Below are positions 6,809 to 63,611 of a stretch of DNA of 64,000 bases, in pieces (within the stretch, counting starts at the first letter, position 1; every line of letters begins with the position of its first letter). The notes under the pieces were generated by a model. The model saw only the letters and a program-made list of their open reading frames with translations, was not told the DNA's origin and searched no databases. Source of the stretch: Pagrus major. Its lineage: Eukaryota; Chordata; Actinopteri; Spariformes; Sparidae. Location: contig NC_133233.1 in the NCBI RefSeq assembly GCF_040436345.1, positions 6,767,992 to 6,831,991 of the forward strand. The letters are read 5' to 3'. Both the position numbers and the translations under genes were made by a program.

Positions 6809-9800
6809 ATGGAGACTACAACATCTGATTATGATTACAGCCCTGATCCGTTCACGCATGCCAGTCCATGTAACAGGGACAGTGACAACAGTCTGGGATC
6901 TCATCTAGCCCCCCTGCTCTACTTTATGTTTCTCTTCAGCCTCGTTGGCAACGTGCTGGTTCTGGTCATCATCCATCGGTGAGTGGTTCAACAAAAACTA
7001 AATGAACAACAGTACTGCAGATGTCTTTTTAAAGAGAATACCATACAAACAAAGTTTTGGTGTTGCAGTTTGAAGGGGCAGCAGATGTATTCATGGCCTA
7101 ATTCAAACAGTTCTTACAATGTGTCATTTATTTTTAAATTATTTACACACATTTACTATAACTTTGGATTTTGTTTTACAAGGTGTAAACTGAAGTTATA
7201 ATTCCTGATCCTGGTTGATTTGGTAACACCTGTGGATACTGCAGCTTAATACTACAGCACGCAATCCTTGAGCAGCTATTTTGTCAGAAATACAACAGAA
7301 GATCAACTGCTGTGTGTGTTCACAGTGCAGCCAAACAAACACACATTGTCGAAGAATTGATGTTTAAGGAAAAGGTCAATAATCAGCCTTTCCTCATGCC
7401 ATAAGCTACTACAATCTTTAATACATAGATTGGTCAGCTTGTTGGGGAGTTGGAGGTGCTAACTGTAATGCTGAGGAGTTTTAGTCTTATGTTGCTGTCA
7501 AATACCCGAGTCCTGACTTCTACATACAGTATATGTAGTACTTTGACTATTTTGAGTTTTGGCGTATTTGTTGTTATATGGCTTTCAGGCCAAAAGAGAG
7601 CAGAGCACACTACCAGGATGTGAGGGTTTATGGGCTAAACTTGACACCATCTTGCGCTGGGAAAAAAACAGCCATGAGGTCAAATAGTAAAACATGACAT
7701 GAGAGAAGTGAGACCAGGTAAACTGTGCCAGATTTATTCAGAATGTCTCCCATTCTCTCAAGTCAGCATTTAACCTATGTTAGTCTTGAAACATATACAG
7801 TATGTGTTTAGCTGAAACATTCTCTCAGTTGATTCAAGGGATGAACATTATTATACATGGTACAGTTCACTTGTTTTTCAAGTGACTTTTTGTTGTATGT
7901 TATTTATGACCCGATCATTTCTAGATCAGTAATAATATTTTTTTAAATTGTATTTATTTTACTTTTAGCTCTATTAGTTTTAACAATGGCCAAAAATGTC
8001 TTCCATACAAAGGATGCTCAGAGCGCTCTGGAACAGTGAAATTCTGAACAACCATTTCTGACTGAATAAATGAACGCAACATGTTTTACAGCTAAACGAT
8101 CAGCAGACTAATGGTTTGGATAGTTAACTACGTAACACATCTGAGTTGGATGAGGAAACAAGAGAAACTATGAGCTCGGCAGTCTGTGTGTGTGTGTGCG
8201 CGCAGCCACCCACCCACACCCACACACACACTCACACACAGGATGTTTGGTTTATATTAGCATGAAGCTAACACAGCTCGAACATGGTTGAGAGAGTGAA
8301 CAGTAAACAGTGAGGCAGACCTCAAAGACGTCAAATTGCAAAACAAAACATTGGCTTCCACGCTGCATCTGTCCCATGTCGGTAAATCCTGTGCAGAAAT
8401 GGTGGACCCCGGCACTAATGCGAGAGTGGTACTTATAGAATGTAAATACACTGAAAAAATTGGGTAGCACTACATTTTGCCTACCCTCACTTGTAATAAA
8501 TGGGTGGATGAAATATTTAAAACACTCCTCAATGCAATACAATTCAGCACCACCACAAACTACATCCTCAAAATCTAATGGATCTAATGGAGCATAACTG
8601 AACACTATAACCTAACCACTTCTTCAGCCAAGACATCTAAAGAGAGATTTTAGTCCACTTGCCTCAGATTCTGATATTTGGGAGGCAGAATGGACAGAGC
8701 AGTCCTGCGTCAGGCTTCAGTTCTACACCATTTGTGGCACCGTTGGATTTGACTGGAGATGTCATCAGGTTGTCAGGAAAAAAACACACTGGGAGAGTAC
8801 AGATGAAGTCATACTAGGAGCGTCTTATTCGTGTGCCCACAGAGAAAAGAGTACAGTAGCTGTCCTCTGCCTGAGCCCCCTAAGAGTTACCTCTCCTCTG
8901 TCACTGTCGACCGACCCTCTGCACTCTACCCTCGCCTCCATCGCTGCTGTCTGCCTTCAAGAGCAAGCAAATGTGAAAATACATTCAGTCTTCATGGAAA
9001 CACAAATGGCAGAGTCAGAGGTGAACTCGGCAAAGTCTCCCTGGGCCTCTGACTGAAAGAAGTGTTTATAATGCAGAATATTATAAAGGGGAAGCAATGA
9101 GACGTGCTGGGTTAGCTGCATACTGACATGGTGAGGGCTCAGGGAAAGTACCATTCACAGCTCTGAACTTACAACTGACAACTCAAAACTAGCTTCATTG
9201 TCTTAATTCACAAAGCTTAGCTTCACATTTTTCCACATCTAAAAAAACAATCGATAAATATTGAACAGTGCTTCAGTGCTGCTTTTTCATCCATAGACTA
9301 TATTGAAATGAAACTATATCAATATCATCATTATTTGATGTATTTATCTCTAAGAATAAGGGTTATGATTCACTGAAGTTGGGAATGTTTACTCTGTGTT
9401 TCTCTTTGTTGGCTTCTATTTCAGATCATAAATATGCAGAAAGAAAAATATATGCTTATGTTTCTAAGGGCTGGACACAGATCATAAAGAAAAGTGTTGC
9501 GCAATAACAAAACTGTAATGATAATCCACACTACTTAACACATTGTAAAGTCCCTATGATTTAAGTCTTAAATTTTTCTCATAAAGTATGCATTACATCA
9601 TTTAATGTACTTAGTACTCAATTATAATTTTAAAAGTAACTGAGTACAATTTGAATGAATATCTAAACTTTTCATCTGCACACATAAAGACAAAAACAAA
9701 CAAACTACCATTCTTCTTGAGAAGACAGGCACAATGTTAGGAATGTTAAGATGACTGACAGCGTCACCCTCAACAAGATATCTCGCTAAGCATAACAAAA

Positions 9801-11101
9801 TGGAAAAGAGAATTTTGTAATTTTTTTAGACATGCTTATGGTGGGGTTAGGTTTAGGCACAAAAACCACTTCAGGTTAGGGTTAGGAAGCGATCATGTTT
9901 TGAGCAGAGACCTGTTTTGCTCTCCACCATTGCTGGCTCCTGACTTGCCTTCAAACATATCTGTTTTTTGTCATCACAAACAGCTGGAATTTGTTCCAAG
10001 GTCTCCTTAAAAATATGTAGTGTCACGTTTACAAATGTTCAACTGTAGTCTTGAACTGCAGTCACTGGCTTGACAGCCTTCTGGCCTGCAACTCCACCAC
10101 CACCCCCTCCACCTCCTGATATGAAAGTCAGGCCATAAATATATAATGTGAACATGATATGGCACTCATACAGAAATGTTGATTTCCTACTATGACATGA
10201 ACAAACAAACAGTGTGACCAATAAACATTTTTGTTTTTTCTCTCCTAGGTTTGAGAAGCTGACCACTGTGACCAACATCTTGCTGTTGAACCTGGTGTTC
10301 TCCTCCCTGATCTTCGTGAGCAGCCTTCCCTTCATGGGACTCTACATGCAGCTCTCCAACTGGATCTTCGGCGCAGCCATGTGCAGGATTGTTGGAAGCG
10401 CCTACTACCTGGGCTTCTACAGTTCTGTCCTCTTCCTAACTCTTTTGACCTTTGACAGACACCTTGCAGTTGTGTACTCCTTGAGCGCATCGCGAGTGAG
10501 GAATCAAAGGTATGCGGTAGTCTCCTGCGCTGTGGTGTGGGTGGTCAGCATCCTGTCCTGCATCAAGCAGATATTTATCCACAACCCTTATTTACATAAG
10601 ATGACCAACAAAACATACTGTGGTGAGTATCCTGGTGAATTATCTCGTCTTAGTTTTGAGAGGCTGAGGGAAACTGGATTTTACCTTCAGATCTTTCTTT
10701 TCTTGCTCTTTCCTCTGGCCGTTATTATTTACTGCTATGTCAGGATTGCCATCACCGTCATATCATCCAGGCTCGTTACCAAGTTCAAAACAGTGAGGTT
10801 AATATTCATCATTGTGCTGTTGTTTTTTGTGTGCTGGACCCCGTACAACATTGCAATGCTGATGCAAGATAAAGTGGAAGGCTGTGAGAAACAAAAGAAA
10901 TGGACTTATGCTCTTCATGTCACTCGTATCTTTGCTTACACTTACTTTTGCATCAGTCCTATCTTCTACACGTTTGTCGGGAGAAAGTTCCAGAACTATT
11001 TCAGACAGATGCTGGTCAAACGTTTCCCAGGGTTAAAGAAGCACATTTCTGTCAGTCAGCACAGCAATGTATCCACCAAAACGACACCAAATGATCTTTA
11101 G
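6809..11101 (+). CDS. xcr1-like: Chemokine receptor, XCR1-like, copy 1 (two coding exons 6809-6978 and 10249-11101)
   Basis: Class A GPCR of 340 residues. The first coding exon ends CATCG|GTGAGT and the second begins after CTCTCCTAG; the intron splits the Arg57 codon. The N-terminus has the acidic-tyrosine stretch DYDY (Y8, Y10; likely sulfated) and C21. TM1 carries GN (N48). TM2 reads NLVFSSLIFVSSLPF, so position 2.50 is Ser76, not Asp. C102 pairs with ECL2 C181. The DRY box is D126-R127-H128 followed by LAVVY. There is an N-glycosylation sequon at N177, a CWTPY motif at 252-256, and ECL3 C269, the usual partner of the N-terminal Cys. TM7 reads SPIFY (S293), not NPxxY. The tail is Ser/Thr-rich. 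SLSASRV after the DRH box and FYSSVLFLTLLTF in TM3 resemble XCR1; another XCR/CCR-like subtype is possible. It looks intact. Expected role: G-protein-coupled chemokine sensing at the plasma membrane of leukocytes. Confidence 0.85.
8185..8241. repeat. TG/CG/AC microsatellite in receptor intron
   Basis: (TG)n runs into CGCGCAG and then an (AC)-rich tract with CCCACC interruptions. It is also present in copy 2 (38796-38853). It is an alternating purine-pyrimidine tract inside the 3.3 kb intron. Confidence 0.85.
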
Positions 11102-12706
11102 GAAGGGGAAGGCCTTTGTTTATCAGTTTTTGGTCATTTTGGATTGTCATTGTGGCGAGCTAAAAAGCTTAATTAATAGAGAAACAAATGTGTATCTGAT
11201 AGTGAGTACTTACACTTTGGGTAGCTGGGTTGCTGGAGACGCGTTTGGTAATAGTCCAATCCTGCGCTACATATACAAATAATGTTGGCCAAGAGTCTGG
11301 GAAATGTTTTCTTAGCTGAACTGTTCAGCACGATGCTTCAGTGATTTGCAAGGGTTGTTCAAGTTCGTTGCCCTTATTTTCTGTTGTTTTTGGCGACTTT
11401 CTGCCCTCCAGTGATCAAAGGTTCATTAATGAAGCTCCGAAATGAATTTAAAATTGGGCAACTGTAAAAACATTGATTTCGGAGGGCTCTTTAAACCCTC
11501 AGTCATGTCAAACACAACAGAAACATTAAAGGAACAGTTCACAGAAAAATAAAAATCCAGTCATTATCTATTCAATCTCATGCCAATGGAAAGTCTTGTG
11601 AAGTTTCATTATCCACCTGACCATGCATTGAGGGTGTAAATAACATCTTTTCAAATCAGTTTGGGGTCTCAGGGGAGAGTTGGATTATGCCTGACAAGCT
11701 GTATAGAGCCATCTTATGCTTTTATGGTGGTTTTCCACGCTTCAAAACAAGTCCCCTGATACTTGAGTTGTTTAGGAGAATGCTGCAATGCTGTTTTGAT
11801 GTGAAGCTCCTACGAAACTTAACCTGACTCTTCATGTGCATGTGGGTGAGTACATAATGACTACATCTCTTATTTTTGGGTGAACTTATCTTTTTAACTG
11901 GTGGGATATTGCACACCATGAACTTTTCCCAGATGGAAGAGTTGAGAGAGTTCATTCACGCCTATCCACCACAAAAAGGCGCTCCCTGAGTCATCATTAA
12001 GGCTTATAGAATTTCACACTGGACATAGATGATGTGCTGCAGACTGTCTTCAATATGAATGTAATAACTAAGAATACTGACCTACAACTGTATCAAAAGT
12101 TAAGGTGGATTAACTGCGGTTCTGCTGCGAGATTGGCTATGTTCGTTTCTGCAAAACACAGCTTTGTTGAAACTTTACAATTCTTTATGTTGCAAATGTA
12201 TGTTTCTTTAGGTTCAAGGACCTGGTTCTGTCGCCACAGATACGACTAAATAATGCCATGACGTCTTGTTAAAAACATCCAGTGGTGTCACACTTTAAAA
12301 AAATTAAACACTGTCTTGAACAGTGGTCACTGGCTTGGAAGCTGTTACACGTAGCTGCATTGCCACCACCACCCCCTCAAAGTCTCTACATGAAAGTCAG
12401 CTCATAGTCATGTACTATGAGCGTAATGTGACACATATTGTATAAATGTTGATATGGTAAGCAACACATGTACACAATGGAAGATATGGTTTGAAGAAAT
12501 GGAAAATACTAATTTTGTTCTGCTAACTGAGCTGTCATTGCCACATTTACTGTTAGTAAAGACAACATTAAGGGCATTAAACAAAGCCCAGTCACCAGAA
12601 TCAAATGCTGGCAGTTAATGTTCATGCTAACCAGTGATACGCTCAAATTTGTCATACGTAACATGTTTACGACCTGACTTCTAGATCAGCAGGTGGAGGG
12701 GATAGT
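11102..12706. other. 3' flank of receptor copy 1, no gene seen
   Basis: Closely matches 41719-43314 in unit 2. Short open frames recur in both units only because the DNA is duplicated. A possible polyadenylation signal (AATAAA within GAAAAATAAAAATCC) lies near 11547. Confidence 0.5.
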
Positions 12707-12714
12707 GGTGGAGT

Positions 12715-14055
12715 CAGTGCCGGCCCAAGCCTTTTGGAGGCCCTAAGCAGAATTTGATTCGGGGCCCCCCTCCCACCACCGGGGAGTCACCTGTGCTTGA
12801 CAATTATTGACACAAATGTCACACTATAATGTTACATTATAACTTGTATTAATACAGTGACGGATTATGAACTACTGTCCACCTGGGCACAGATGCATAA
12901 GGACCCCCCCTACCTTATTTGTATGAAAGTGGGTGCAAATGGGGGAAGGGGGGTCTGGGGGTCCTCCCCCAGAAAATTCTGAATTTGGTAGATGTGATTT
13001 CCTGTATTCTGGTGCATTTTTGGGATGGCCAGCTGGAGAAGGGCAATACCTAAATTCGTTCAGATTCATAGCCTTTTGCTTTTTGACTTATTGAGGTAGT
13101 TACTTCACGCAATGACTTGGGCTTCAGGGCCCCTTGACCTCTTGGGCCCGGTAGGCTCATTCAGTTATCCATCCTTGCTCACATGCCACAAATGTTTTGG
13201 GGCTCCTGGCCCCTCTACACCTCTAGCCCCCTGGGCTTGGTAGACCCCTGTATTAATATAGTTGTTATTTACACCAAATCAGTCACCTTTTAACCTTAGA
13301 GGGTACTACAATCACAAATTTATTTTAAACTTTCATATTCAAAGTGAAGCACTAAGTGTGATTTACTGAACTTGAATTGAAAAATAATCAAAAAAACAGC
13401 AGAGATTGCATTTGTTGTAAACACGTGTGGCCAGGTCATAAATGAGGAGATCGGACACAGTAGAATAATTATTGTGGGTCTTTTATTCCCCGACTGCAAT
13501 TTATAAAAGAAACAGCATTAACACTGCAATTTTGAGGATTTGAGGTAATCAGTATCAAACAAACAAAATATTTTTCCACACTGTACGTCACACTGATGGT
13601 AAACCTCAGTTAGCTTATGAACTTCAAACACTTATCTCTGTGTCCTAGACATTTGCTCCAGTTAAAAGTGACTCTAGACTTGACCAGACAACAGCAGTGG
13701 CTCTTTCTGAATAAATAAAATAAAAAACAGAAAAACAAATGAATACATTTTCCCAGCCACATAACTCATAGTCACATTACAGCAGCATATTCTTTAATTC
13801 ACAGAAAACATACTGTAAATTACACTAATGAACAAAATACATTTTCAAGTAAACATTCTTGCATGAGCTTAAAACACATTTTTAAAAAACAGTAATAATT
13901 CCCTACAGAATAATAAAACACTGTCTTAACAGTCTGAAAACAGTCTTGGTCTCTTGTTCACCTGGCTACACAATTTTTTTCTCGATTGCGGGCCCCCTGG
14001 TGGCCAGGGGCCCCAAACAGCCGCTTAATTTCGCTTATGCCTCGGGCCGGCTCCG
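12715..14055. mobile_element. Non-autonomous hAT-type element, 1341 bp, 8-bp target duplication
   Basis: Flanked by GGTGGAGT on both sides (12707-12714 and 14056-14063). Unit 2 has the uninterrupted site with a single copy near 43320. The ends are imperfect inverted repeats: CAGTGCCGGCCCAAGCC at the left; the complement of the right end reads CGGAGCCGGCCCGAGGC. The 8-bp duplication and a CAG-type terminus are typical of hAT. No transposase frame is visible. It inserted in unit 1 after the duplication, or into one allele. Confidence 0.88.
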
Positions 14056-14063
14056 GGTGGAGT

Positions 14064-17000
14064 TACAGGCCAGAAAGCTGCAAAACCAGTGACCGTAGTT
14101 CTAGACTCTGTTTCAACATTTTCAAGCACGACACCACTGGATATTTTTAAGGAGACCTTTGGACAATTTCAAGCCATGTTTGTGGAGACAAAACCAAATA
14201 TTTTACAGTAAGTAGGGCTGTCAAGTGATTAAAAAAAACCAAATTGAATTAATTACAAGCTTTATGATTAATCATTTGTAATTAATGCCATATGCCAATA
14301 TTTGCCGTATTATTAAAAAGAATCTCAGTGCAAATACATTTTGGTAGATGAGTGAATCAGTTAATAAATGGACACTCTAAACTTTAAAAGCAGGTGATAT
14401 TTGAAGCTTGTAGTTCTGCGATGGTTAGAATATTCCTCACTGCATAAGTTGCACAAAACGGTTCTCCTGTCAACAGTTCCATTGAAGTACCACTCCAGTG
14501 TGTTTTGGCATTTTTATGATCTTTCCCGACAATTTTTTATAATTTTTCACAAATAAGTACAATTTTGTGCTTAAAAAAATTAAGCTGTCGCTAAAATGGA
14601 ATGGACTACAGTAGAACTTTTATGTCATCTGCCAACCTTGGCGTCCGGTGTTCTAAGAGTTGCGTGGCTCCTTTAATAACAGGGCAGTTTGTAGTGAGCG
14701 AGTGGAGAGCGACGGTCGGTGGCTGAGCTCAGAGCAGACAGCTGTTAGCCACCGTAACAGACGGAACGTTTAGCAGGGAGGTTGTCTAGTGGCAGTAAAT
14801 GTACAGTACAGGTTACAGTTTGACCATGAATAAACTCTGCAGCTCCTCAATACACAAGAGGACCTCGTGTTTGAGTGGCAGCTATCACTATCCCTGCTAA
14901 TATCCATGCTATTTGTGTCCATGCTAATGCTATCCATGTTACTATTAACCACAGTCCATTCTGGGATTGAGACAGAATGTTAACCGTTTGACAGTTAGGA
15001 ACACTGGCTGCAGTGGGACTTTTCCATTCAGTGCACTCAGCAGTGTTTAGTTATCACCTCCATCATGTTTACAAAGCTGCTGTGGAACGTGTTCAGTGAC
15101 GTAAGGTCAAGGGGTGTCATAGACTGCGATTAATCTGTGTTATTTTTTTTCATTGCATTATCTTTTCTGTAATTAATGAATCAATCGAAAAGTACACATT
15201 ATTAATATGTTATTTTGACAGACCTCATTTTAAGCCAAAACATAATCTTACTCTCAACCTAAACAAGTGGTTGTTGTGCCTAAACCTAACCAGATCAGAG
15301 CGTTGTCACAACATGAAATTGAAAAGTTAACATAGAGAAATGTACAGGTGGAACATGTAAAAATGTAAACATATCCATGGTTTACAGGAATGAACATTGT
15401 CAATTTTTGTACCGGAAACTGGATTGTTAAACAAAGACGGGGTAGTGTGTTGAAAACCTGCTGCTCACCCTGATCACCTTTTTCAAACACAGTAAAATTA
15501 AACATTGTGATATGATTTTGATTGCCATCAGAAACACTCAGTGTGAATGCAATTTTTTTACCCGGCATAATTAGTTATCTGCAGCACCAAGGGAAAGGGG
15601 TCCACAGTCCCTGAATCCTTAAATATTTGAGTAAATGTTAACATCCCACATGTAAAGAGATTTGAATATTATAAAATTGTGGTGTGCTCTGTATAATTAT
15701 CATATAGACCTTTTCCGGTTACGCTTAATTTGGGTTGTTCATATTCTTTGTTAACTTGTTTTTCTGTCATGTTTAATATGAGCCACAATCTACTTGTAAA
15801 ACTGAGGGAGCTGCACCAAAAAAGGGAATTAAAGCTTCATGCTTGGTTGTTTTTTGTTTGATTTGGTTCTTGCATTTGCTTCTGTAAATCTAAGCTGTTT
15901 GATTAAATCAGATCTTTTATTCAGCAGGCTTCATGTTTCTGTTTTTCACATTCCCTTAACGTTCTTCCCAAATACGTTCATCTCAGACAGCACTGCTTAA
16001 AAGTTTGAGTTCAAATAGTGTACATGTTTTTCATGCTCACGTTCAGAAGAGGACAAGACCAGCTGGTTGCACAACTGATCGAGACTGACAATATATGTTC
16101 TTTATACTGGATCTGCTCTTAAGTTTAAGACTGAGGAGGAGAAATAGTAAGACCAGTCTTAAAAGAGCAACTTGTAAGACATAGCCAGGATTTTAGTTCA
16201 GAGGGGCTCAATGTAACAATTTTTGGCAATTTACATGAATCACTCTTTTACTGGCCATATGTGAGCAGATTGTATCGTGAAGTGAAAAATGACACCTTCC
16301 CCGTCTCTCTCAGTTGCTCATACAAGCCTGTAGATGATGTGTTGAAGTTGTTTAATGCTGCCGGACTGCGTTTGTCTGTGAAAAGAGTGCAAATGATGTG
16401 ACTGTAGGCACTGTCTTGAGCACCTCATCTCAGTGCATCTCTCCGCTCCACTAACAGAGATGTTAATGTTAGTTCAGAAATATCGTCCTTGAACATAAAC
16501 TAAGAACTGGCTTCCAGCACAACTCAGAAGTTCCACAGAGCTGCTTTAAAACATTCAACCCTAACCCTAACATCATGAACAGAATGTGAAGGAACAATAG
16601 ATTTGACGTTGCATCAAAGAAGTCTATGTACAGTACTGTGTTGCATAAATGTCTACTGAAGTTAGCATGCTAACCAGCTAGCTTCGGCCTGTCCTCTCTT
16701 GTAATGCTACTTTGTAACACAAAAGGTGGTGGACTGATAGCCCTGTAGTTTCAGCAGGGAGATGTAAGAACAGCAAAGTAAATAAAATACATTCACAAAA
16801 TGTCAAAAAAGGAGATATTTTCCCCTTACTAAACAGAAAAACACAACCGTGCACCTTCTGAATTCAACTTTCTCTCTTATACCTGGTAAGAGCTTAACTG
16901 CCCCGTTATCTCATCTAAAACGCACTCAAACAGGACATAAATGAAATAAAACTCACCAAAACAGTCTTGGTTTGTCTTTTCACAATCCCCTCTGGTTTGG

Positions 17001-17898
17001 TCAAAATAAATCCTCAATTCAGAGAGTATGATGTAAAAATATTTCAGCGCTACACGCTGTTTTCATCCAGGTTCAATCGCAGTTTGGTGTCCAGATGTGT
17101 TGACTGTGAAGTGTCTGAGCCCCTTGTACCGCAGTGACTCCCCCATCATCTGAGGTTGCGGTGCGGGCAGACTTCTGCGGGCAGACTTCTGCAGGCTACT
17201 TAGCTCCACGGCTAATTGAGCTACCTGCTCAGTCATTAACTAGATGCTGCAGCCAAAGATAGCAACAGCAAAGACTACACTGAGCAGCAGTTAGAGGTTA
17301 AGCTGACCCCTATTCAAACAAATAAATGACCTTGTACCCTCTATAGTTTTGGAGCTACCTTCGAATTCTGACAATTATTTTTACAGGTACACCTTTTAGT
17401 TAGCATATTTTATGGTTGTAAACATCATTACTCATCATTTATTACATTATCTAGTTTGGTCCTAGCATGGGTTCTGTTTTAAAGCGCTGGCAGATCGCCT
17501 GCCAACCTACCCTCCTGCCTCAGTGGCTAATTTTTCCTCTTGTGGCTAAATTCTCCCTGCACACTGCTCGCTGATAAATTGTAAACCAGGCTTAAATTTC
17601 TGCCATCTTTTCCACTGGAGGAGGGAGGGAGGAAAAAATATCAAGCTGTCAAGAATGAATAGGGGCTTCAGCAGAGAGTAATGCTTTCAGATAAGTGTTC
17701 TTTCCAACCATTTTTCTCTGCTATGTCATGAGTAAAGTCAAGGCCAGTAAAAGTTAGAAGAGTCGCACATTATCGCACTGAAGATTATCAGATTAAACAT
17801 GTGTTCAAACGGGAGGAGACAGGAAGTGGACTCATGAGCAACACAAATTCAACATAAATTGGGGGATATGAGTATGTTTCCAAGTGATAAGAGCACAG
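14064..17898. other. Shared intergenic sequence, no gene recognised
   Basis: Matches unit 2 (43,321-46,947) with small indels. About 110 bp near 14483-14578 is missing from unit 2, a block near 44120-44180 is missing here, and unit 2 carries a short AAAT microsatellite (43484-43513). Only short open frames without domains are present. Confidence 0.5.
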
Positions 17899-18060
17899 CC
17901 CAGCCAACATGTACATGTGGGCCCCATATGGGTTACAGAGGGGCTGCATAGGTACCAAGTGGGCATGGGCTTGAACTGGGCAAATTGTCTGGGCCCCATA
18001 TGGTTTCAGTAACATGGGTCTTATATAGGAAGCCCATGTGGGCTCTCCCCAAAAGTTATG
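17899..18060. repeat. Satellite-like block rich in GGGCCCCATATGG words
   Basis: Begins CCCAGCCAACATGTACATGT and contains repeated GGGCCCCATATGG and CCCATGTGGGC words. The same vocabulary, with the end word ATGTTGGCTGGG in the opposite orientation, makes up the 182-bp array at 34768-35492. The unit 2 copy is 46948-47106. A 91-residue minus-strand frame here is a by-product of the repeat. Confidence 0.6.
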
Positions 18061-18210
18061 CAATCAACAGCGCCGCTGCAAATAATCCCCAAACGCAATT
18101 AATTTGCACTCAAGTAACAGCCAACATTGCCACCGAAAATTGCGAGACATGTTAAACACACTGCGCCAGGTGTCTGTGCGCACTGACACTGGGCCGACAG
18201 TCAACCTCTA

Positions 18211-24345: not shown

Positions 24346-24361
24346 TTGCTCTTGTTTGGTG

Positions 24362-26690: not shown

Positions 26691-26694
26691 GGTG

Positions 26695-52307: not shown

Positions 52308-55300
52308 TCACAAGTCCAGTTTGTCAGGCGGCTTTGTCACCCGACCAACTCTTGTAACAGTTCCTATAGGTTGGAGGTGACTTCTGTTTCTCCTGAGGAG
52401 ACCCCTGTCGGTCTCTACCATATAAGACCTCGGAGTATTGGCTGATCCGACGACTGCTCCTGTGGTTCTCTCAGTGGTAATCCAGACCTTTTGACCAGCA
52501 GTCAGTTCTGGGAGAGGTCTTGAGCGGTGTCTCAGGTTGTAGTTTGTGGCCTGCCTTCGCCTTCCCTTCTCCTCCTTCTTGCGAAAGGCCTCCAGGTCTT
52601 GCCACTTAGGATCCAGCTTGGTCGTTGATTGGGGTAGAGATGAACGCAGGTTTCTTCCCATCAGCAGCTGAGCTGGTGAGAACCCGTGCGCCAGTGGGGT
52701 GGACTTGTAGGCCAGCAGTGCTCTGCTGTAATCACTGTCTTTTTTCCACAAGTCCTTGATGGTCCATACAGCGCGTTCCGCCTACCCGTTCGCTTGAGGG
52801 TAGCGGGGGCTGCTTGTGGTATGTATGAAATTGTTCTCTTTTGCAAACTCTCTGAACACTGTTGATGAAAACTGCGGCCCGTTATCTGATATGACAAACT
52901 CTGCAGTCCCGTGCCTGGCGAAGACCTCTTTAATAGCCCTGAACCTCAGCCGAAGTGCTTTTGAGCTCTGCTATCTCAATGTATCTTGAGAAATAGTCTA
53001 TGATCAACAGGTAATCTCTCTTGGACCACGCAAATAGATCTATACCCACTTTCTGCCACGGGCAGTCTGGCAGGGGAGTGGGCACCAGTGGTTCTTTGAG
53101 CTGTGTTCTGTGTTTTTGACATAGTTCACACCTTTCCACCATTTGTCCTATCTGGGCGGAAATGCCAGGCCACCAGACGGATTCTTTTGCTCTTGCTCTG
53201 CATTTTGAAATCCCCTGATGTCCTTCATGCAGCCACTGTAGCACATCTGCTCTTAAGGGGGGTGGAATAACAAGTCTCTCTCCCTTCATAAGGAGGCCGT
53301 GAGCGATGTGGAGATCTGTTCTGTCCCACCAGTATGGGTTGATGTGTGGGTCAGCCTCACAGTTCTCCGGCCACCCTGTGAGACAGTGTTCTGTCACTTT
53401 TGTGCACACTTTATCTTCTTTCTGTGCCTTTTCGATTTCCTCCAGCCTTTTCTCTGTAGCTGGGAGAGAAGACAGTACACAGTCCACAAAAACCTCAACC
53501 TCTTTCTCCAGCTGTAGGTCTCGTGCTGTAGGCGGACCCTCCAGGGGAGCTCTGGAGAGGGCATCTGCTGTGATGAGTTGCTTCCCTGGGACATGGACGA
53601 TGGTGTAGGAGAACCGCAGCAGCCGCAGACGAAACCTCAGGATCTGCGGCGGGAGGTCATCTAACCCTCTTGAACTCAGCAGTGGAACCAATGGCTTATG
53701 ATCTGTCTGTAGTGTGAAATGCAGACCTAATAGGTAAGACGCGAGTCTCTCACATGCCCATGTAGCTGCCAACGCCTCTTTTTCTATTTGCACATAGCGC
53801 TTCTCTGTGTTAATCCTCTAGAAATGTATGTCACTGGTCGCCATGAACCGTCAGTCTGTTGCTGGGTGAGAACGGCTCCTAAGCCGTATGGCGATGCATC
53901 TGCGGCAACCTTTGTCTCAGCAGTGTTGGAATACTGGGCTAATACTTCTGGAGAGCTCAGTATTTGTTTCAATCTCCGAAAGGCTGTTTCCTGGGGCTCT
54001 GCCCATATCCATTCGTTCCTCTCTTTCTGCAGTTCCTTTAGTGGTGTGGTTATTGTGGCTAGCTGGGGCAAGAATTTGGCAAGGTAATTTGCCATGCCCA
54101 TGAGGCGCTGCACGTCCTCCACGCATGTGGGCTGTGGCAACTGCTGGATAGCCTTGACTTTATTTGGGTCAGGCTCGATGCCTTTTGCAGAGACTTTGTG
54201 GCCCACAAACATGACTTCTTCTCTTGCAAATTCACATTTCTCATTCAGAGTGAGACCCTCCTGTCGTATCTTCTTAAGCACGTGGTGCAATCTTTGGTCG
54301 TGCTCCTGCCTGTCCCTGCCATACACGCGGACGTCGTCCGCATGACAGAGCACTCCATCGCAACCCTCCAACATCTGTGACAATCTCCTCTGAAAATGTT
54401 CCGGAGCGGATCCAATACCAAAAGGGAGTCGGTTGAATTGGTATCTCCCGAAAGGAGTGATGAAGGTCGTGAGGGGTCGTGATTCTGGTGTGTTAGGAAT
54501 CTGCCAAAATCCAAATCGAGCGTCAAGTTTGGTGAAAACTTTGGCATTTTTCATCATTGCCAGTGTTTGGTCCACAGCTGGGAGAATGTGACATTCTCTT
54601 TTCACGACCAAATTCAGGGAGATCCACACAGATCCTTGGTGGTTTCTTTCCTGGTTTCGGAACGACAACCATTCCTGAACACCATTCTGTCAGCTCCATG
54701 ACCTTAGAGATAACTCCCATGTCTTCCATTCTGTTCAACTCTGCCTGCACTGTGTCTCTGAGGGGCAAGGGGGTCCTTCTGGGTGTGGAGAGAGCAACTG
54801 GTGTGGCACCTTGGTCAAGCTGTATGTGGTAAGGCTCTTTTAATTTGCCTAGTCCTTGGAAAACATCTGGATAGGCTGCTCTCTCTGGGTTGTACAGTCT
54901 CTCAGGTATTGATGTTACATCTGCCCCACAGTCTAGTTTAAACTCAACATTCTCCCCATTTAGCTGGATTCTTTCCATCCATGGTTCTGATGTTTCAGTT
55001 CCTATGTCTCCTAGAAAATAATAATCATCAGTGTCTGTGTCGCCCTGAATTTCTATGACTTCGCGCAGACCTACTGTATCCCCTGTGCGACATACTGCAG
55101 CAAAATGTCCTTTTTTCCTGCATTTCCAACATTCTGCATCTCTCGCTGGGCAGTCTTTCCATGAATGTTTTTGTTTACGGCCACACCTGCCACACTCTCT
55201 CTGCGTCTGGTTATTTGGCTTTTGTTGCCATTTCTGTTTCCTCTGTTTTTCCTTGGTGTTGATGGCATCCATGTTTGCTTTTTGTATGGCTTTAGCAAGT

Positions 55301-55768
55301 GTCAGGTCAGAGTCCATTTGTAGCTGGTCAGACAATCTTTTGTCTCTTATCCCAACTACTATTCTGTCCCTTATGAGCTCCTCTTTCAGTACTCCAAAGC
55401 CACAATTTTCAGCAAGTTTGTGTACTGCTGTGATATAAGCCTCCACAGTCTCTCCGTCATGCTGACGTCTGTTGTTGAACTGTGCTCTTTCGAAAATTAT
55501 GTTGTGCTTTCCAATGTAGTGCTGCTCAAATGCTGCTTCGACAGCCATATTTCTTTTTATCTGCATCAGTCAATGGTAAAACTGCTAGCACATCATCAGC
55601 TGCATCACCCATTGCATACAGGAGTGAATTCACCTGGTATTCCTCCTCCTTTTTATCAAGAGCTGTTGCGATGCGAAACCTCTCAAATCTGCGGATCCAT
55701 CGCGGCCATTCTGCTGGGCTTGCAAAGTCGAACGGGTCTGGGGGTATTAATTGTAGAGCAGTCGCCAT
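52308..55768 (-). pseudogene. gag-pol of Ty3/gypsy element A
   Basis: Gag starts at 55768 (MATALQLIPPDPFDF) and shifts frame near 55540. The next frame (to 54523) holds a Cys-rich motif pair including CCHC (CWKCRKKGHFAAVC, about 55100) and a protease with DCG in place of the usual DTG (FKLDCGADV). RT spans about 54750-54000 across another frameshift near 54630; its catalytic motif reads HADD. RNase H begins near 53940 (KVAADASPYGLGAVL) and crosses a further shift near 53790. Integrase has an H2C2 finger (about 53260-53110) and the first catalytic Asp region. The core then breaks at about 52930-52750, and a tail with YNLRHRSRPLP and QKVW motifs ends LDL at 52308. At least four frame changes mean it is inactive. 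Confidence 0.85.
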
Positions 55769-56014
55769 CTGCGTTGATTCCCTCGTCCTTTCACATTCGG
55801 AATCCGGGTCCTCTGGTGCGCTGTCTCTCTCGACTCACTCGCCGGTTTGCTGGTGCTAACGAGCTAGCACTCTACTCCGTATACTGCTTGGGGCTCTGCC
55901 GTCGTCTTCGTAGCGGCTAGTTCCGGTTTAAACTGCACAAAACTTTTGTATTCGCCAGCTAACACTCTTACTGAAACTACCGCGGAGACTTACAGTTCAC
56001 CACTTCTGATACCA

Positions 56015-56151
56015 TGTATAATAATAACACGGGACACTGATGTGTTGCTTTGAGCCGTATCTCTGTTTACTGTGATCCAGGTAGAGCGTATTACCCGCAT
56101 TGCATTGTGGGAGCTAAGTCTCCTGGGACTAGTAGTTCTACTACTACTACA
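56015..56151 (-). repeat. LTR of Ty3/gypsy element A, 137 bp
   Basis: TGT...ACA ends (minus-strand start TGTAGTAGTAGTAGAACTAC; end TTATTATTATACA). Unusually short for a gypsy LTR but complete by its ends, the adjoining primer-binding site and the 5-bp target word. Confidence 0.8.
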
Positions 56152-56275
56152 GCCACCAGCCACATTGCTCAATGTGACCAAGGCTGTGAAAGAGGGCACA
56201 CCACCAGCTCAAAACAGGATTCTGTGTAATGTGCGTGTGATGGGAAATGCAGATAACTTTGATTTTCCTCATTAA

Positions 56276-58002
56276 CTACTGCTCTATTTCCTTTACATAC
56301 TTTAAATCCTCTGTGATCCTAACTTATTCTTTTTTGTGTTGATTTTTCTCTACAGGGTTCTCTGAGCTAATTGGTCAAGGGCTGGTGTAGCCGCAGATCG
56401 TCATTCCAAACAAGCAGGATCACACCAAACTCGATTCATTCAATTCAATTGATTTCAGTCCTCACACATGTGATAGATGTAGGTGTGCTCTTGTTTGGTT
56501 GGATACCTGCAACCACACTATCCCTCTGCAGATTAGACATCTGCTTCATATTATGTATACTGTATGCGCATGTTTGTTTCAATTAATACTGGTTTCAGGG
56601 CTGCAAAGTAGGGGTGCAGCGAATCGCTGTTGCTTCGTGGTTCGTACAGACCAGGGTTCGCCCACATGTGATCTGCGGACTAAATGAAACCCTCAAAGTG
56701 TGAAATACAGTTTACAGCAGAGGTTGCGCTAGATTTTTTCGTTGTCTGTCATTTTGACTGACAGGATCATAAAAATCCCGTCATAATCTATTTTTATCCA
56801 TCATTTTAATTTTTGTTTTTTAATGATAAAGATCTATTCAATAGCATTTAATTTTCATTGTTTCAATTTGAATTAATATTCAATCCAAACAAGCGCCATT
56901 GAGAGAAAAGATGAACAGACATCCACACCGCGCCTTCACTTATGTCAACACCACATGAAGCAGATGAATGACTTTTTCTCCACTAAAACCACTGACTGTG
57001 GCCACTGTGCGTAACCAGTAATATATGAACAATATAATTTTACAAAATTAAACAATTGCTATTAAAATATGAACAAACCATTCGCAAGAAATCAGCTGAA
57101 TTGAACTCAGTTCACCTGCTGTGGCCTGAACTCAGTGTCACACCTTCCTCCTGGTCCACATGGACTTGAACTACATCAGTCCCTCTTTTTTCATCTGTTT
57201 TATCATCAGATGTTTTTTCTCCATTATTAGGGTTTTTTTCTCCGTTATTGGGCATTTTTTCTCCGTTATTGGGCGTTTTGAAGAAACTTTGGACACTCAG
57301 GTGCCATTACATTTTGCCGTGTGAAGCCAACGAGGTCATGCATCAAGACTAGACAATAGCTAGTTAATGTGCGCACTCGCCACCAACTGGGCAGGAGTGG
57401 TAATTACAATCTGTCAAAGTGATAGATGGCCTTCAGATTTTTCCATCACTGTTTTAAAAAAACGGTCAATGACGGATAATATTCTATTAACGCGACCCCC
57501 GGTTTAGAGTTTAAGTTACAAGATCCCTGAATCTTGATGCAGAGTTGCAGTGGAAGGACGACAGATGTGCATTGTGTTTCTCTCTGCAGCTCATGTCTGT
57601 GTGACAGCAGAGGAAGAGGAAGATTGACTTATTTAAAAGCCGTCACACTTCTATCAAGTGAATTCCTGACCATGACTTTGCGCATTTACAGCGGTGTAAC
57701 TGGGAAGCTGTGCAGGCTGTCGTCACAGAAATAGATCATTAGATTGTGATGTTTATTCTAATTTTGGTGATTTCTTTACTTCTTCACAGAGCTAGAGTTC
57801 ACCTCTGTTCACTGGTGCAGCCCTGTCTGACACAATGTGTCTGTCTGATCTGAAAAATGGACTGAATCATGACTCAAAACTGTGATGTGATCCAAATTGT
57901 GAATTTTTTGATCCACGACACCTATTTTAAATGCCTATGGAAATCTAGTTCTATTTTAATATCTGCTTCACTCCTTTTATTTTGTGTCATTGTATTTTAC
58001 AG
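56276..58002. other. Shared non-coding sequence between DUF4806-type exons, unit 2
   Basis: Includes an acceptor-like TTTTTCTCTACAG near 56355 and the empty sites of the two unit 1 solo LTRs (near 56492 and 57475). No further gene is recognised. Confidence 0.5.
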
Positions 58003-58955
58003 CCACTTATGCAGAGGCCAGGGTAAAGCTACATCAAGCTGAGTATACATCAGACCTGACAGACACCGAAGATGGCTTGATAAAGGGAAAGTAGGTGTTT
58101 GTGGGGGAATACAGGTTAAAGGTCATTTCCATAATATAGAGGCAGTAGTTATATATCTTCATATTAACCTCTCTAGGGCAAGGGCAAAACTCTTCCAGAG
58201 TCAGAGCAAGCAGCTAGAATGAAGTGAGCATTCTGATTCAGAGGAGGAACTTCCACCCACTCCCCCAGAAAAACTCCTTGGGCCAGCAGCAAAGAAAATG
58301 ACCAGCCGGATCACCATCCCCACTGCCCAGCGAGTCGCCAGTTCCACTGTCCAGCAGGTCGCCAGCCCCACTGCCACTGCCCACAAGCCCCAGTTGTGAA
58401 GCCATGTTCTCTAAACTTCTTACAATTGTAGAAGAAATTAAGGAGACCCAGAAGGTTCATGGTAAGATGCTAAATGTCCTGCTGAAGAAGCAAGATGCAT
58501 CAGTGATGGAGGTTCCTGATGGAGTGGTGTTCCCGCTGCAAACTCAAGCAGATGTTGAGGCTCTCAAGGAGAAACTGGGGGACCGCAGTCTAATGTCTGC
58601 TGTTGTAAGTTTTTTTTATTTTTTTATTTTTTTTAACTTTTTTTCCAAATTGATTTGCATTAGCCTACAAAATAAAAATATGTATTACATTAGGTGGTGT
58701 GCCCCTAAGCACAGATTATGCGCTTTCGGTGGTTAAGAAGGGCCTCTCTGGGCCAGGGATCGGAGGGTTAAAGAGAATATGTTTTTAATGTTAGCTCATG
58801 CTGTCAACCAAATTTGTTTTACAGAGGCTCTTAAGAAGAATTCATTGACGGCACAGGTAAACCAGCAGGAAGCAGAGAGGGCACTGTCGAAATGGTTCAC
58901 TGGGGCAAGAGACAGAGGAGGACGAAGGGCATCCAGACAGCCAGTGCCAAATTAA
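58003..58955 (+). pseudogene. DUF4806-type protein, middle and C-terminal exons, unit 2
   Basis: Same exons as 28462-29569: 58003-58090 (donor GTAGGT), the exon from 58177, the DUF4806 core ending 58604 before GTAAGT, and the last exon 58825-58955 ending RQPVPN. A TGA stop replaces the Ser codon after QLE (near 58222), and the repeat has one 48-bp copy instead of four. A frame change separates the repeat from the MFSKLLTIVEEIKETQ segment. Non-functional. Confidence 0.65.
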
Positions 58956-59941
58956 ACAGTACTGAGCAGTGGTGGAATATGAGTGAGTGCAGAAAATTTG
59001 TATTCAGGTACAAGTACAGTTACACTGTTAAAATATTACTCAAATATTACTGTTACATTGTTTTTCTGGAACAATTATTTTCATTACCAATAAATCTGTT
59101 GATCATTTTGTCTTTTAATCAGCAAAATATTTGGTCCATAAAATGTTAGAAAATATGTGACCGAAAACCAGAATATATTCATAAATAAAAAGTTGAAATC
59201 AGAGAATGTGGCCATGTTTTAAATTAGATAGAGCCAGACTCAAACTGGTTTGTGATTAATAATTTATTTTTTTGATTAATTGTTGCAATTCTAGGTTGGA
59301 TGTTATTCAAACTGTACTCAGTACTCAATTAGGATTTTTTAAAGTAACTAAGTAGATTACTTTGTGTAATGCATAAGTACAATTAAAACTACAAGCTTTA
59401 AAATGTACTCTTAGAAGTACAAGTATGGAGCCAGTTTATTTGAAAAACAAAGTAATTTAAAGAATAAAATTTGTAACTGAAAGTTCAAGTTTTGAATTGT
59501 AGAAAAAAATTAAATAACACCGCTTTTTAAACTAAAAATTAGTGTAGGAAAACATTAATTTAAATTTAATACAGTTGTGATTTAATTCTGATATTCTTTG
59601 AAACGAATTATTTATTTTTAATTTCCACTTATTTTCACATTTGAGGTTTTTTTTAAGTTGCTAATTTAATGTTTTCTGATTCAGATCTTTTTTCCACATT
59701 GAAATTCAAAGTTTCAGAGTCTTGGCCCTGATCTGGCGTGAGGGGCAGGGCATCAACTGAGAACTGGACCGTGGGATCATGAGTCTCAGCATAACAAAGA
59801 AGATTCTGGGTCTGCCCCAATTATGTTGCCTTCAGGAGTCATGGGTACTTTGATAAATGTGTGTATTCATGCTTGCTATGCACTGGATTAGCAGTGAATA
59901 AAGTGATGCTCATGACAAAGGTACATGTAACAAGCTGTTTT

Positions 59942-61034
59942 GATGTCTAATCAGAAATGCCAATACCATGCTGGAATACGCCTCAAGATGGTTTCAGATG
60001 AACAAGCTTTCCTTGAATGTAAACAAATCAAATTATATACTTTTTAGAAACAAAAATAAAACTTTTCCTAAGCAGGACTCAAAGCTGCAAATTAATAACA
60101 TTGAAATCAAACAAGTCTCGTGTGCAAAATTTCTTGGTATATTAGTAGATGAAAGATTGTCCTGGGGAAACCATATTGAGTATGTATGCAAAAAAAATAT
60201 GAAGTCCTATGGCATTATCAGAAGAGTCTCTTCCTTAGTTAATCAGTCCTGTCTTATGACATTATATCACAGTTTAATTTATTCATATTTGACATACTGT
60301 AACATTGTTTGGGGTGCTTCATATTCCTCGTACCTTAATCAGTTATTCTCAATTCAGAAAAGATTCTTGAGAATGATTTCAAATTCTACTAATCAAGTGC
60401 CATCTGCACCCTTATTTAGCAAATTTAAACTTTTATCAATTTTTTCTATTAATATGTTTCAAACATGTCTGTTTATGTTTAAATTCATTCATTACAAACA
60501 AGACATTCCAGGCACTTTTCATAAGTTTTTTTTGTTATCATCAGATATTCACTCTTATTCAGTGAGAGGCCTGAAGAACTTTCATTTACCTCTTTGTCGT
60601 ACCTCCAGTCATAAATCTTGTATTAAATTCCATGGCCCCCAACTCTGGAACTCTTTAGATAGGTCTCTTAAGCTTATATCATCCTACAAAATGTTTAGGA
60701 CTAGTCTGGTGAGGTATCTTCTATCCAGGCAAAACAATACTCATGTCTAGTATAACCGAAATGAATTTGTAATTTTATGGATATTTTTCTCTCTCTGTTT
60801 GTTTGTTTATTGTGTCTTTTCTTTGTCTTTTTCCCTTTTTTGCTCTTTTATCTTTTTTTTTCTTTTTTTTTCTATTGGTTAATTTGTTTTAGTGATTTTA
60901 TATTAAGGGGGAGGAATTCATATAAGCCCTTTGGGCTTCTTTTCCTCTCCTGCACAATTATTTGCCTTTGTATTATTAAATATAATTCTTGTTTTTTTAT
61001 CATTGTGCATATGAATAAAAAAAAAAAAAAAAAA
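59942..61034 (+). mobile_element. 5'-truncated LINE (non-LTR retrotransposon), unit 2 only
   Basis: An open frame 59968-60750 encodes the C-terminal part of a non-LTR reverse transcriptase (MNKLSLNVNKSNYILF thumb-entry motif, KFLGILVDERLSW, LTYCNIVWG, and FHGPQLWNSL near the end). A 3' UTR and a poly-A run (61017-61034) follow. Unit 1 has the empty site (GCTGTTTTAGACCAC near 30645); a TTTT target duplication is possible. The frame is still open for 260 codons, suggesting a fairly young insertion. Clade not resolved (Rex1/CR1-like is one possibility). Confidence 0.82.
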
Positions 61035-61141
61035 TTTTAGACCACTTGAGGCGGTTATCAATATATAAGCTCATTTTGCAGTTTAGACCATTTCTCAAGA
61101 CTGTGTGGGGGTGTCAGCTCACGTTTGATTGACAGCTGCCT

Positions 61142-61431
61142 CTAAAGTCCCAGCAGGACTAAAAAAATTATCAGTTTAAGTGTATGCTATATTTGGAACA
61201 TCTTCGCTGCTTTACTTTGTCATCAGTAGGGGTGGGCGATATGGCCCAAAACTGATATCACGATATTTCTCAGAATTTTTGCGATAACAATATTATTGAC
61301 GATATCACATAATATTAATGATTTCTTGCTCTCTCTCTTTTTTAATTAATTTTAATATCATACTAGTTGAGCAGGCCAGCATGAACAGTCATTTACTTTC
61401 AACATATCCAACAAACATGTCTTATTTCTAT
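61142..61431. other. Unit-2-only block with hAT-like CAGTAGGGGTGGGCGATATG motif
   Basis: About 290 bp absent from unit 1 at the point GACAGCTGCCT. It contains the start word CAGTAGGGGTGGGCGATATG (61224), common at ends of hAT-type non-autonomous elements in fish, followed by TGATATCACGATATT words. No clean target duplication was found, so a deletion in unit 1 is equally possible. Confidence 0.45.
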
Positions 61432-61500
61432 AGTTTCTATTGTTTACTTTAGTTTTTATTTCTATAGTTATTTACAACACAAAAATAAATGTAAGCCTTA

Positions 61501-61537
61501 TGGATGGATGGATGGATGGACGGATGGATGGATGGAC
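61501..61537. repeat. (GGAT)n tetranucleotide repeat, unit 2
   Basis: Longer counterpart of 30820-30843, with an interrupting GGAC. Confidence 0.9.
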
Positions 61538-62998
61538 TAACAAACAACACACAGTGGGAAATCACATCAGTGGTCAAATTATCCAAACTATCAAGCTAGT
61601 TTGTATTAAACTGGACAGTTAAACAGCACCAGTGTCAATTTAAAATTACTTTATCTTCACTAGTCTTGACTAGCTCCTTACTTTGTTGTATTTTATCCAA
61701 CAGATTATCATTTGATGGCACACGTCAGTTCATGTCGTACACCGGTATGATCCTGTAAACTGTCGTCTAAAGCAGCTCATCTGCCTGTTAGCTTCTGAGT
61801 GAGGGGTTGGTTTGTTTTTAGACCGGCATAGCACGAGTGGGCGGTGGTTTGTTGGTCCGGTTAACAGTAAGTATGTTGTCTCCGTGTCTCATACAAGGCT
61901 ACATGTTCAAACGGAAAACAAAACGAGCGCAAACTGCAGACGACGGCTGATGAAAGTCATAAACGTTTGCCCACGATGCACTATTTCTGAACTTTAGAGG
62001 TGGTTAAACGGCGTCATGTTACGTCGACAATAAGCTTACATTTAAAATTATATGGGGGTTAAGGCGAGCAGCTGGTGAGCAGGTCTGGTACTTACCGGCC
62101 CCCTCTGCCATGCTTGTTTGTTGTGTTGCGCTGCCTATGTCCGCACTGCATAATGAAGAAAAACCACCATGGTAGTTACTTTCCAGCCCAATTCCGAGTG
62201 TAATTTCTTAGTGCTACCTTGTCTTTCTACCTCAGTTAACCCTGTCCTTCTCCTCGTCCTCCCCAGTGTCGGCTGGTAAACACGCACCGTAACCTAGCCA
62301 GCCACCAAGCTTCTCTGCACACTCTGCAGCTTCATGACCTCAAGTAACGCCTTTCCTCATGGAGCCCTCTTCACCTGCTTCAACGAGCTACCCCTGAACT
62401 GCACTATTATCCCTCTGATTGTTGAATAAATCACCTTATAACCTTAACCTGTCTGCTTTTGGGTCCATCTACAAACCGTCACAAAAAACCTTTTTAAAAA
62501 GTGTTTTAGTTTGACAATAATAAGCAAACCACACTCTTTCCTGAACTCTAATCATAGTATAGTTGTCTTTAAAAAATGAGATCCTTGGCTCCATACAGTG
62601 TGGTGCACACTAACGCTTTTAGCTTAGCAGCTAAAATGATAATTTCGGCACAAAACGGCTGGAAATCAAGTCTTTTCAGATCAGTACTGAATTAATACAT
62701 TTTAGGGTAAACTTACCCTAAAAACCCTAAAAGTCCAGAATGTAATATTCAACCTTGACCTGTTTTTCGTTCGGACACCTGATTAGGCTATGTATGAACT
62801 ATATGACGGCAGCTTTTTGCAGGTGCTCTGCAGAGCTTTTACAATACTCATGTTAGAGTCTCTTCCACACTCTGCACGCCTTGTCAGCGACGTACTCCTT
62901 CTCTTGTCTTTATCAAACGTGCGTGATCATTTTGTCTGTGGTTTTCCACAGTGGTTTCCTCACAGTTAGTCAAATATGATTTGAATTTAATATTAACA

Positions 62999-63224
62999 CG
63001 AGACGTGCACAGATGCATTTATCCTGTTTGTGTGAAGTGTTGCTGTGGTAATCCCTCCCTCACACATGCAAACACACATGCACAGACACACCCACTTTTC
63101 TGTGGCACTTCCTTCCCCTAGCTCGCTGACTTGTCATGGAGTGACTTGAACTCACCGTGAGTCAGACAGCTGTGGCGTTCAGAGTCAGACAACAAGAAGA
63201 AGAAGCCTCCCTGCTGGCTGGACG
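62999..63224 (+). promoter_or_regulatory. Conserved upstream block and probable 5' noncoding exon of receptor copy 3
   Basis: Same block as units 1 and 2 with TGAGTCAG; the candidate donor is GCAAGT (63225) as in copy 1. Confidence 0.4.
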
Positions 63225-63441
63225 GCAAGTCAGCTCCCCTTAGCATCATCATCATTCCCACAAACATCTGCTATTATTTCCTGTGCTCCTCTGAGCCTCT
63301 CAGGTAAAGGCATTGTTGTCCAGCTCTCCTTAAATCATTTCTAATAGATGAATTGTTTGATAATCATCATTTTGTGAATGTTATGTTTGATGGCTGTGTT
63401 TCTGTGTCTGGCAGATTCCCCTGCTGACCTTCCATAAAAAG

Positions 63442-63611
63442 ATGGAGACTTCAACATTTGATTATGATTACAGCCCTGAACCGTACACGCATGTCAGTCC
63501 ATGTAACAGGGACAGTGACAACAGTCTGGGATCTCATCTAGCCCCCCTGCTCTACTTTATGTTTCTCTTCAGCCTCGTTGGCAACGTGCTGGTTCTGGTC
63601 ATCATCCATCG
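63442..63611 (+). CDS. xcr1-like: Chemokine receptor, XCR1-like, copy 3, first coding exon only (window ends)
   Basis: 170 nt encoding 56 codons plus two bases, ending CATCG|GTGAGT exactly as in copies 1 and 2. The N-terminus reads METSTFDYDYSPEPYTHVSP, a mosaic: S4, F6, Y15 and V18 as in copy 2, D9, S11 and S19 as in copy 1, and E13 unique. From C21 onward it is identical to both other copies. The intron continues to the window end; exon 2 is not visible, so intactness cannot be judged. Confidence 0.82.

Follow-up and report, generated by a model that had tools for sequence, protein, structure and literature searches.

N-terminal replacement changes among three young tandem CC chemokine receptor-like genes of the sea bream Pagrus major

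The receptor gene triplet

The window analysed here is a stretch of 64,000 nt from the sea bream Pagrus major (contig NC_133233.1, positions 6,767,992 to 6,831,991; G000:C19:6767992-6831991 in our searches, for which the genome comprised 785.9 Mb in 25 contigs). It carries a tandem array of three copies of a receptor gene, with first exons starting at 6809, 37423 and 63442. All three copies are intact, and in their N-terminus as well as in a segment around the second extracellular loop (ECL2) they have accumulated amino acid replacements at rates above neutral. Exon 2 of copy 3 lies beyond the window, at 67451-68303 on the window scale, and its frame is intact according to the flanking DNA. 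The features are, with "no strand" for the tandem units:

6361..36974, no strand: tandem unit 1, about 30.6 kb (self-comparison)
6809..6978, plus strand: copy 1 exon 1, coding part (codons 1-56 and two bases of 57); the spliced product matches protein P0001
6818..6865, plus strand: copy 1 codons 4-19, variable N-terminal segment (three-copy alignment; AlphaFold2 model)
6979..10248, plus strand: copy 1 intron separating the two coding exons; contributes to the neutral yardstick
10249..11101, plus strand: copy 1 exon 2 with stop codon
10580..10672, plus strand: copy 1 codons 168-198, ECL2 and top of transmembrane helix 5 (TM5), second replacement-only cluster
36975..62993, no strand: tandem unit 2, about 26.0 kb (self-comparison)
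37423..37592, plus strand: copy 2 exon 1, coding part
37432..37479, plus strand: copy 2 codons 4-19
40860..41718, plus strand: copy 2 exon 2, stop codon included (exceeds that of copy 1 by 6 bases)
41191..41283, plus strand: copy 2 codons 168-198 (ECL2 and top of TM5)
62994..64000, no strand: start of tandem unit 3, matched on to about 75017 on the window scale (self-comparison)
63442..63611, plus strand: copy 3 exon 1, coding part (exon 2 outside the window)
63451..63498, plus strand: copy 3 codons 4-19

Judged by their sequence, the three genes encode teleost CC chemokine receptors of the class A G-protein-coupled receptor (GPCR) type. The spliced product of copy 1 matches P0001, "C-C chemokine receptor type 3-like [Pagrus major]", with 100% identity along 340 residues, and contains a 7tm_1 domain (PF00001, E 1.4e-50). 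Its best match by sequence among solved structures is CCR1 (7vl8, E 3.2e-62, query residues 3-316), and chains of CCR1, CCR8, CCR3, CCR2 and CCR5 lead the 60 structure matches listed. Two relatives among the protein matches listed, P0038 and P0089, bear the name ccr12b. In an alignment of 58 sequences the four extracellular cysteines of the N-terminus, TM3, ECL2 and ECL3 (C21, C102, C181 and C269) are invariant. The position of the DRY motif after TM3 reads DRHLAVV (126-132), with D126 and R127 invariant and H128 present in at least 90% of the sequences; the usual form in CC chemokine receptors is DRYLAIV. XCR1, a first guess at the identity, was dropped after the protein and structure matches had pointed to CC chemokine receptors. 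An AlphaFold2 model of P0001, based on the same 58 sequences, has a mean predicted local distance difference test (pLDDT) score of 76.7, with residues 1-17 below 50. It places TM1 at 24-58 with no helix before residue 24, the hairpin strands of ECL2 at 168-173 and 178-183, and the start of TM5 at 190.

Over 6.36 kb, copies 1 and 2 are 98.5% identical; elsewhere, matched pieces of the tandem units are about 89 to 99% identical, and large insertions and deletions set the units apart. Searches of the genome found three copies only, the next match being 47% identical and located on another contig. In the exon 2 search 137 of 540 candidates were scored, its counts being lower bounds, and the DNA search with the exon 1 region yielded 3 candidates, which are the three copies.

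Distribution of the differences between copies

A first-pass annotation of this DNA had counted nine variable bases in exon 1, every one of which changes an amino acid. The three-way alignment reproduces this base for base: the changes affect codons 4, 6, 9, 11 (two bases), 13, 15, 18 and 19 and correspond to T4S, S6F, D9N, S11D, D13E, F15Y, A18V and S19G, with the silent sites of codons 1-20 identical across the three copies. The identity claimed for codons 21-56 and their surroundings holds equally, as no base varies among the 110 from codon 21 to the end of exon 1, nor among the 224 before and the 174 after the N-terminal cluster. Between copies 1 and 2 there are 8 variable bases in the 60 of codons 1-20, 0 in the 110 of the remaining exon 1 and 8 in the 853 of exon 2. 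The latter had been described as roughly five silent against three replacement changes; exactly five silent and three replacement codons are found, together with one in-frame indel of 6 bases. In the noncoding DNA the same two copies differ at 47 of 3267 intron positions (a small inversion included) and at 19 of 1608 positions of the 3' flank. The inversion spans about 27 bases, copy 2 (40223-40249) being the reverse complement of copy 1 (9612-9638); at the variable sites of this element copy 3 agrees with copy 2.

Once copy 3 is included in full, there are 25 variable codons. The N-terminus has 8 replacement codons (9 bases) and no silent one. A second cluster, at codons 174-198, came to light with copy 3: within codons 168-198 there are K174S (two bases), Y180F, G182D, R190P and E198D, thus 6 replacement bases and again no silent change. 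The rest of the coding sequence contributes 5 replacement codons (74, 248, 284, 330 and 335) and 7 silent ones (97, 107, 113, 124, 254, 300 and 331). This second cluster, in and beside ECL2, is weaker than the N-terminal one. Strict limits taken from the AlphaFold2 model assign R190P and E198D to the top of TM5 and silent codon 97 to ECL1.

The protein P0003 of Sparus served as outgroup for the direction of change. Copy 1 has private changes at positions 6, 15 and 18, copy 3 has one at 13, and copy 2 is changed at 11, 19 and probably 9, where Sparus has E and most relatives have D. Other states are shared: S4 is common to copies 2 and 3, and R190 to copies 1 and 3, with P in copy 2 and in Sparus. 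Copy 2 has six in-frame bases of exon 2 (residues TN in the region of codon 330; 11064 vs 41676) that are missing from copies 1 and 3; Sparus P0003 has the corresponding residues. This lack may be a shared deletion or a conversion tract. Because it conflicts with the S4 of copies 2 and 3, it hints at exchange among the copies.

Tyrosines 8 and 10 are kept in at least 90% of the 58 sequences. In a wider family alignment, which comprises 117 of the 120 listed matches (300-380 residues; 433 matches in all), Y8 is found in 104 rows (7 gaps). Position 15 is F in copy 1 and Y in copies 2 and 3, and residues 9, 11 and 13 also vary. Retention of Y8 and Y10 while nearby charges and tyrosine 15 vary would fit a tuning around a putative sulfotyrosine site; tyrosine sulfation is a known modification of chemokine receptors (PMC5343877).

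Tests of selection and alternative explanations

As the three paralogs are about 98% alike, the introns and flanks of the copies themselves supply the neutral rate. From 4715 noncoding columns, of which 108 vary, we left out the stretches 9610-9642, 8195-8600 and 7860-7880 (183 columns, 32 of them variable). This clean yardstick gives 76 variable positions in 4532 (1.68%), compared with 9 in the 48 bases of codons 4-19; a comparison of exon 1 with flanking intron had been proposed in the first-pass annotation. When everything except the inversion was kept, the outcome was unchanged. Along the 5555 gap-free alignment columns, 103 of them variable, nine is the largest count in any 46 bases, and it was met in 1 of 20000 random placements (P = 5e-5). 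For codons 1-20, 0.73 neutral replacements are expected and 9 are seen (Poisson P = 8e-8).

A codon model was then fitted, with Hasegawa-Kishino-Yano (HKY) mutation, a star tree of three branches whose lengths also apply to the noncoding columns, and a separate replacement-to-silent rate ratio (omega) for the N-terminus, the ECL2 segment and the rest. With broad limits (1-33 and 168-198) these ratios are 7.7, 5.5 and 0.52, and omega 1 is rejected at P = 7e-6 and 0.0013 for the first two; with only the inversion removed from the yardstick they are 6.7, 4.8 and 0.45 (P = 2e-5 and 0.0027). Strict limits (1-23 and 168-189) yield 11.1, 5.2 and 0.68 (P = 4e-7 and 0.010), or 9.7, 4.5 and 0.59 with only the inversion removed (P = 1e-6 and 0.017), and 9.8, 3.9 and 0.68 when double changes are counted once (N-terminal P = 4e-6). 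Limits of 1-23 and 168-190 lead to 11.1, 6.2 and 0.58 (P = 4e-7 and 0.0019). Thus, the N-terminal replacement rate exceeds the neutral one with an omega of about 7-11, whereas elsewhere omega is 0.45-0.68, and the rejection of omega 1 for the N-terminus ranges from P = 2e-5 to 4e-7. Fisher tests of the contrast between domains give P = 0.0009 under broad limits and 0.009 if codon 97 is assigned to the extracellular part. We regard the result for the N-terminus as robust and the one for ECL2 as supportive. Because divergence is scaled here to the noncoding DNA of the copies themselves, diversifying selection is supported, and the annotation's suggestion of such selection in a recently expanded family is borne out in this respect.

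Several points weigh against this reading. The chance that nine changes all replace an amino acid is 0.051-0.065; "none is silent", taken alone, is therefore only suggestive, and it is the density compared with flanking DNA that carries the case. If the intron rate is taken unfiltered (2.69%), the Poisson test for the N-terminus gives P = 1e-4, or 6e-4 with the double change counted once. For ECL2 under strict limits omega 1 is rejected only at P = 0.01, and with double changes counted once it is not rejected (0.058). Strict loop limits also weaken the domain contrast (Fisher P = 0.033), and when the N-terminus is set against all other coding sequence, P is 0.059. ECL3 is without change in the trio, although it is as variable as ECL2 between species, and in the wider alignment Y10 is retained in only 82 of 117 rows (22 of the remaining rows have a gap). 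The P values are asymptotic and come from three sequences and a purpose-written codon-model script. Furthermore, the region was singled out for its odd look, which makes the test post hoc, though the domain of codons 1-23 comes from the structure model.

Taking these points together, we consider it probable that a recent tandem triplication in the sea bream lineage was followed by repeated fixation of replacements, which drove apart the N-terminus and, less so, ECL2, with the rest under purifying selection. Diversifying selection after duplication, acting on the presumed ligand-contact surface, would be the best reading of this pattern. ECL2 borders the binding pocket of chemokine receptors. 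Since the N-terminus is the first contact of the chemokine and ECL2 lies beside the pocket, the changes may shift the choice of chemokines for each copy and the strength of binding, and the copies might divide up or widen the ligand set. As the replacements are concentrated on contact faces while the rest is conserved, selection would act on what the receptor binds and presumably not on how it signals. In the description of PMC5343877 the receptor tail binds a groove made by the N-loop and third strand of the chemokine, and the N-terminus of the chemokine enters the helical bundle.

The first-pass annotation had named ligand recognition as the driver, which we infer from receptor architecture; change driven by pathogens would look alike. 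The same selection could come from pathogens or parasites if these exploit the outer surface of the receptor or mimic it. This is a sub-case of selection on the contact surface, so that its odds overlap with those of the favoured reading, and it is possible but rather unlikely. It would leave the same sequence pattern, and for the mammalian receptors CCR2 and CCR3 pathogen interaction is offered beside ligand binding in the account of extracellular selection (PMC2880985). Against it, the near invariance of Y8 and Y10 in the 58-sequence alignment fits a retained role in chemokine binding. We know of no pathogen ligand of this receptor, which also speaks against this variant.

Alternatively, the N-terminal variants might be old and held by selection, with conversion between copies homogenising the rest, so that the copies look young elsewhere. 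This we regard as improbable. The flanks of the cluster, with 0 variable among 398 sites where 6.7 are expected, point in this direction, although this count is biased, the nearest variants having served to set its limits; so does the mosaic sharing of the six-base lack and R190 by copies 1 and 3 and of S4 by copies 2 and 3. Yet each conversion event would need to break off within a few codons at either end, the identity of the silent sites within codons 1-20 argues against old variants, and new mutation from a Sparus-like state explains the private changes of each copy. A close donor outside the array was not found in the assembly, either by the exon 2 search with its 137 of 540 candidates scored or by the exon 1 DNA search. 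Of the annotation's proposal of gene conversion combined with selection, the part on selection thus stands, and the part on conversion is only suggestive, with the mosaic between copies as its hint.

No positive selection would be needed if the segment were a local mutational hotspot or if constraint were relaxed in a disordered tail. Across species the N-terminus is, with ECL2 and ECL3, indeed the most variable part of the family, and nine replacements in nine could arise by chance (P 0.05-0.07). Relaxation, however, cannot pass the neutral rate, which this segment exceeds about tenfold. The data fit a hotspot with omega 1 less well, since with a floating N-terminal mutation rate omega still exceeds 1 at P = 0.015-0.027, and at 0.002-0.009 for the N-terminus and ECL2 jointly; this explanation is therefore very improbable.

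To an artefact we give hardly any credence: the divergence of about 1.5% between copies is within the range of heterozygosity in marine fishes, but falsely duplicated haplotypes, being two, cannot yield three tandem copies without true duplication, the units differ by large insertions and deletions, and base errors would not avoid silent sites or spare the 110 adjoining bases. P0001, identical to copy 1, stems from a record with a contig of different length (30535255 vs 30523972), which may not be an independent assembly, and its 90% cluster has 3 members on one contig that may or may not be the three copies. Both sequence error and false haplotype duplication were accordingly disfavoured.

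Relatives, surroundings and known systems

In the family alignment the mean site entropy is 2.06 bits for the N-terminus (2-20), 1.99 for ECL2 and 2.14 for ECL3, and 0.38-0.71 for five blocks of transmembrane helix. Between copies 1 and 2 the N-terminus has 7 differences in 19 positions and the core 1 in 245; comparison of either copy with Sparus gives 6 in 19 and 21 in 245. The N-terminal share of replacements is higher within the trio than against Sparus (Fisher P = 0.0013-0.0042).

Relatives were compared at the protein level only, in 40 hand-picked within-species pairs from 11 further species, Lates being among the species left out. The N-terminal fraction of differences exceeds that of the core in 40 of 40 pairs, by a ratio of 2.2 (Larimichthys) at the lowest and 33 at the highest; gaps facing a residue were scored as differences, which inflates the N-terminal figures. 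P0061, a member of 5 of these pairs, is an incomplete model lacking its start, P0119 looks mis-started, and clustering at 90% hides the closest paralogs. Paralogs of tuna and mackerel show the same contrast as the trio: P0045 and P0077 of T. maccoyii differ at 22 of 33 N-terminal and 5 of 245 core positions, P0084 and P0098 of S. scombrus at 15 of 22 and 5 of 245. In eight within-species pairs residues 22-57, the remainder of the same exon, have 0-2 differences in 36, which argues against exchange of the whole exon.

One may speculate that this clade repeatedly makes fresh tandem copies with a near-constant signalling body and a rapidly rewritten N-terminal tail, a kind of "interchangeable sensor tip". 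Copy number and tail rewriting would then track a changing set of chemokines or pathogen mimics. The idea draws on the sea bream trio and, at the protein level, on tunas and mackerels, whose expansions may not be independent, and we hold it as tentative and unlikely.

Further tandem GPCR arrays exist in the same genome (G000:C17:24628087-24658900 and G000:C7:6933692-7000399). Eight copies of the array on contig 17, which we take to be free fatty acid receptor-like, served as control. No replacement cluster at the N-terminus was seen in these eight copies, paired and judged by eye. The three closest pairs have replacement to silent codons of 1:5 (L040/L042, the closest of all), 11:8 (L038/L040) and 12:7 (L041/L043); in the other pairs listed, replacement codons outnumber silent ones by a factor of about 2 or 3. 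As a control this array is weak, with short N-termini, presumably small ligands and a comparison of codons only.

The tandem units contain further elements. Unit 1 has retroelement frames at 21938-24234 (plus strand), where aspartyl protease, reverse transcriptase and integrase core are matched in overlapping frames, unmatched in unit 2. A second retroelement, in unit 2 at 52308-55569 (minus strand) and unmatched in unit 1, has reverse transcriptase, RNase H and integrase zinc-binding matches in two open reading frames (ORFs); its ORF 54523-55566 gave no domain match on scanning. A 21-base repeat array coding for AVDQADQ-type repeats lies at 49136-51151 (plus strand), with a version of different length in unit 1 (20030-20413), and an ORF beside the array has a weak DUF4218 match under the Pfam cut-off. 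Upstream of unit 1 there is a 13-base tandem repeat array (4510-5006), and within unit 1 an inverted repeat of about 1.9 kb, 88% identical (24362-26267 and 32377-34297).

A study of 2013 on the miiuy croaker reportedly dealt with selection by domain in CCR3. Among the open-access titles listed in our literature searches none deals with the sea bream array, subscription papers being mostly outside these searches. The match to CCR1 (7vl8), nearest solved structure by sequence, does not imply orthology to CCR1. The names CCR3, CCR11 and CCR12 in teleosts mark no clear mammalian orthologs (PMC4690017), and the CCR12 or "CCR3-like" group, which has several copies in some fishes, likewise lacks a clear one (PMC4690017; count table of PMC3568907). 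With these receptors the trio shares the ccr12b naming of its relatives P0038 and P0089; N-terminal selection between fresh duplicates is not a subject of the passages of these two accounts considered here.

Extracellular positive selection as such has already been published for mammalian CCR2 and CCR3, likewise CC chemokine receptors, and the sea bream array is an unusually clean and young example. In the mammalian case 19 of 20 selected codons were reported as extracellular, with gene conversion discussed as a confounder (Metzger and Thomas 2010, PMC2880985). Those are orthologs compared across mammals, whereas the fish trio consists of paralogs in one genome, about 98% alike. These copies are so young that their introns serve as a direct neutral clock and silent sites are unsaturated; therefore selection can be traced to particular residues, eight in the N-terminus and a few at ECL2. 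Three natural receptors which differ mostly in their presumed chemokine-contact surface, in a farmed fish, are a rare experimental set.

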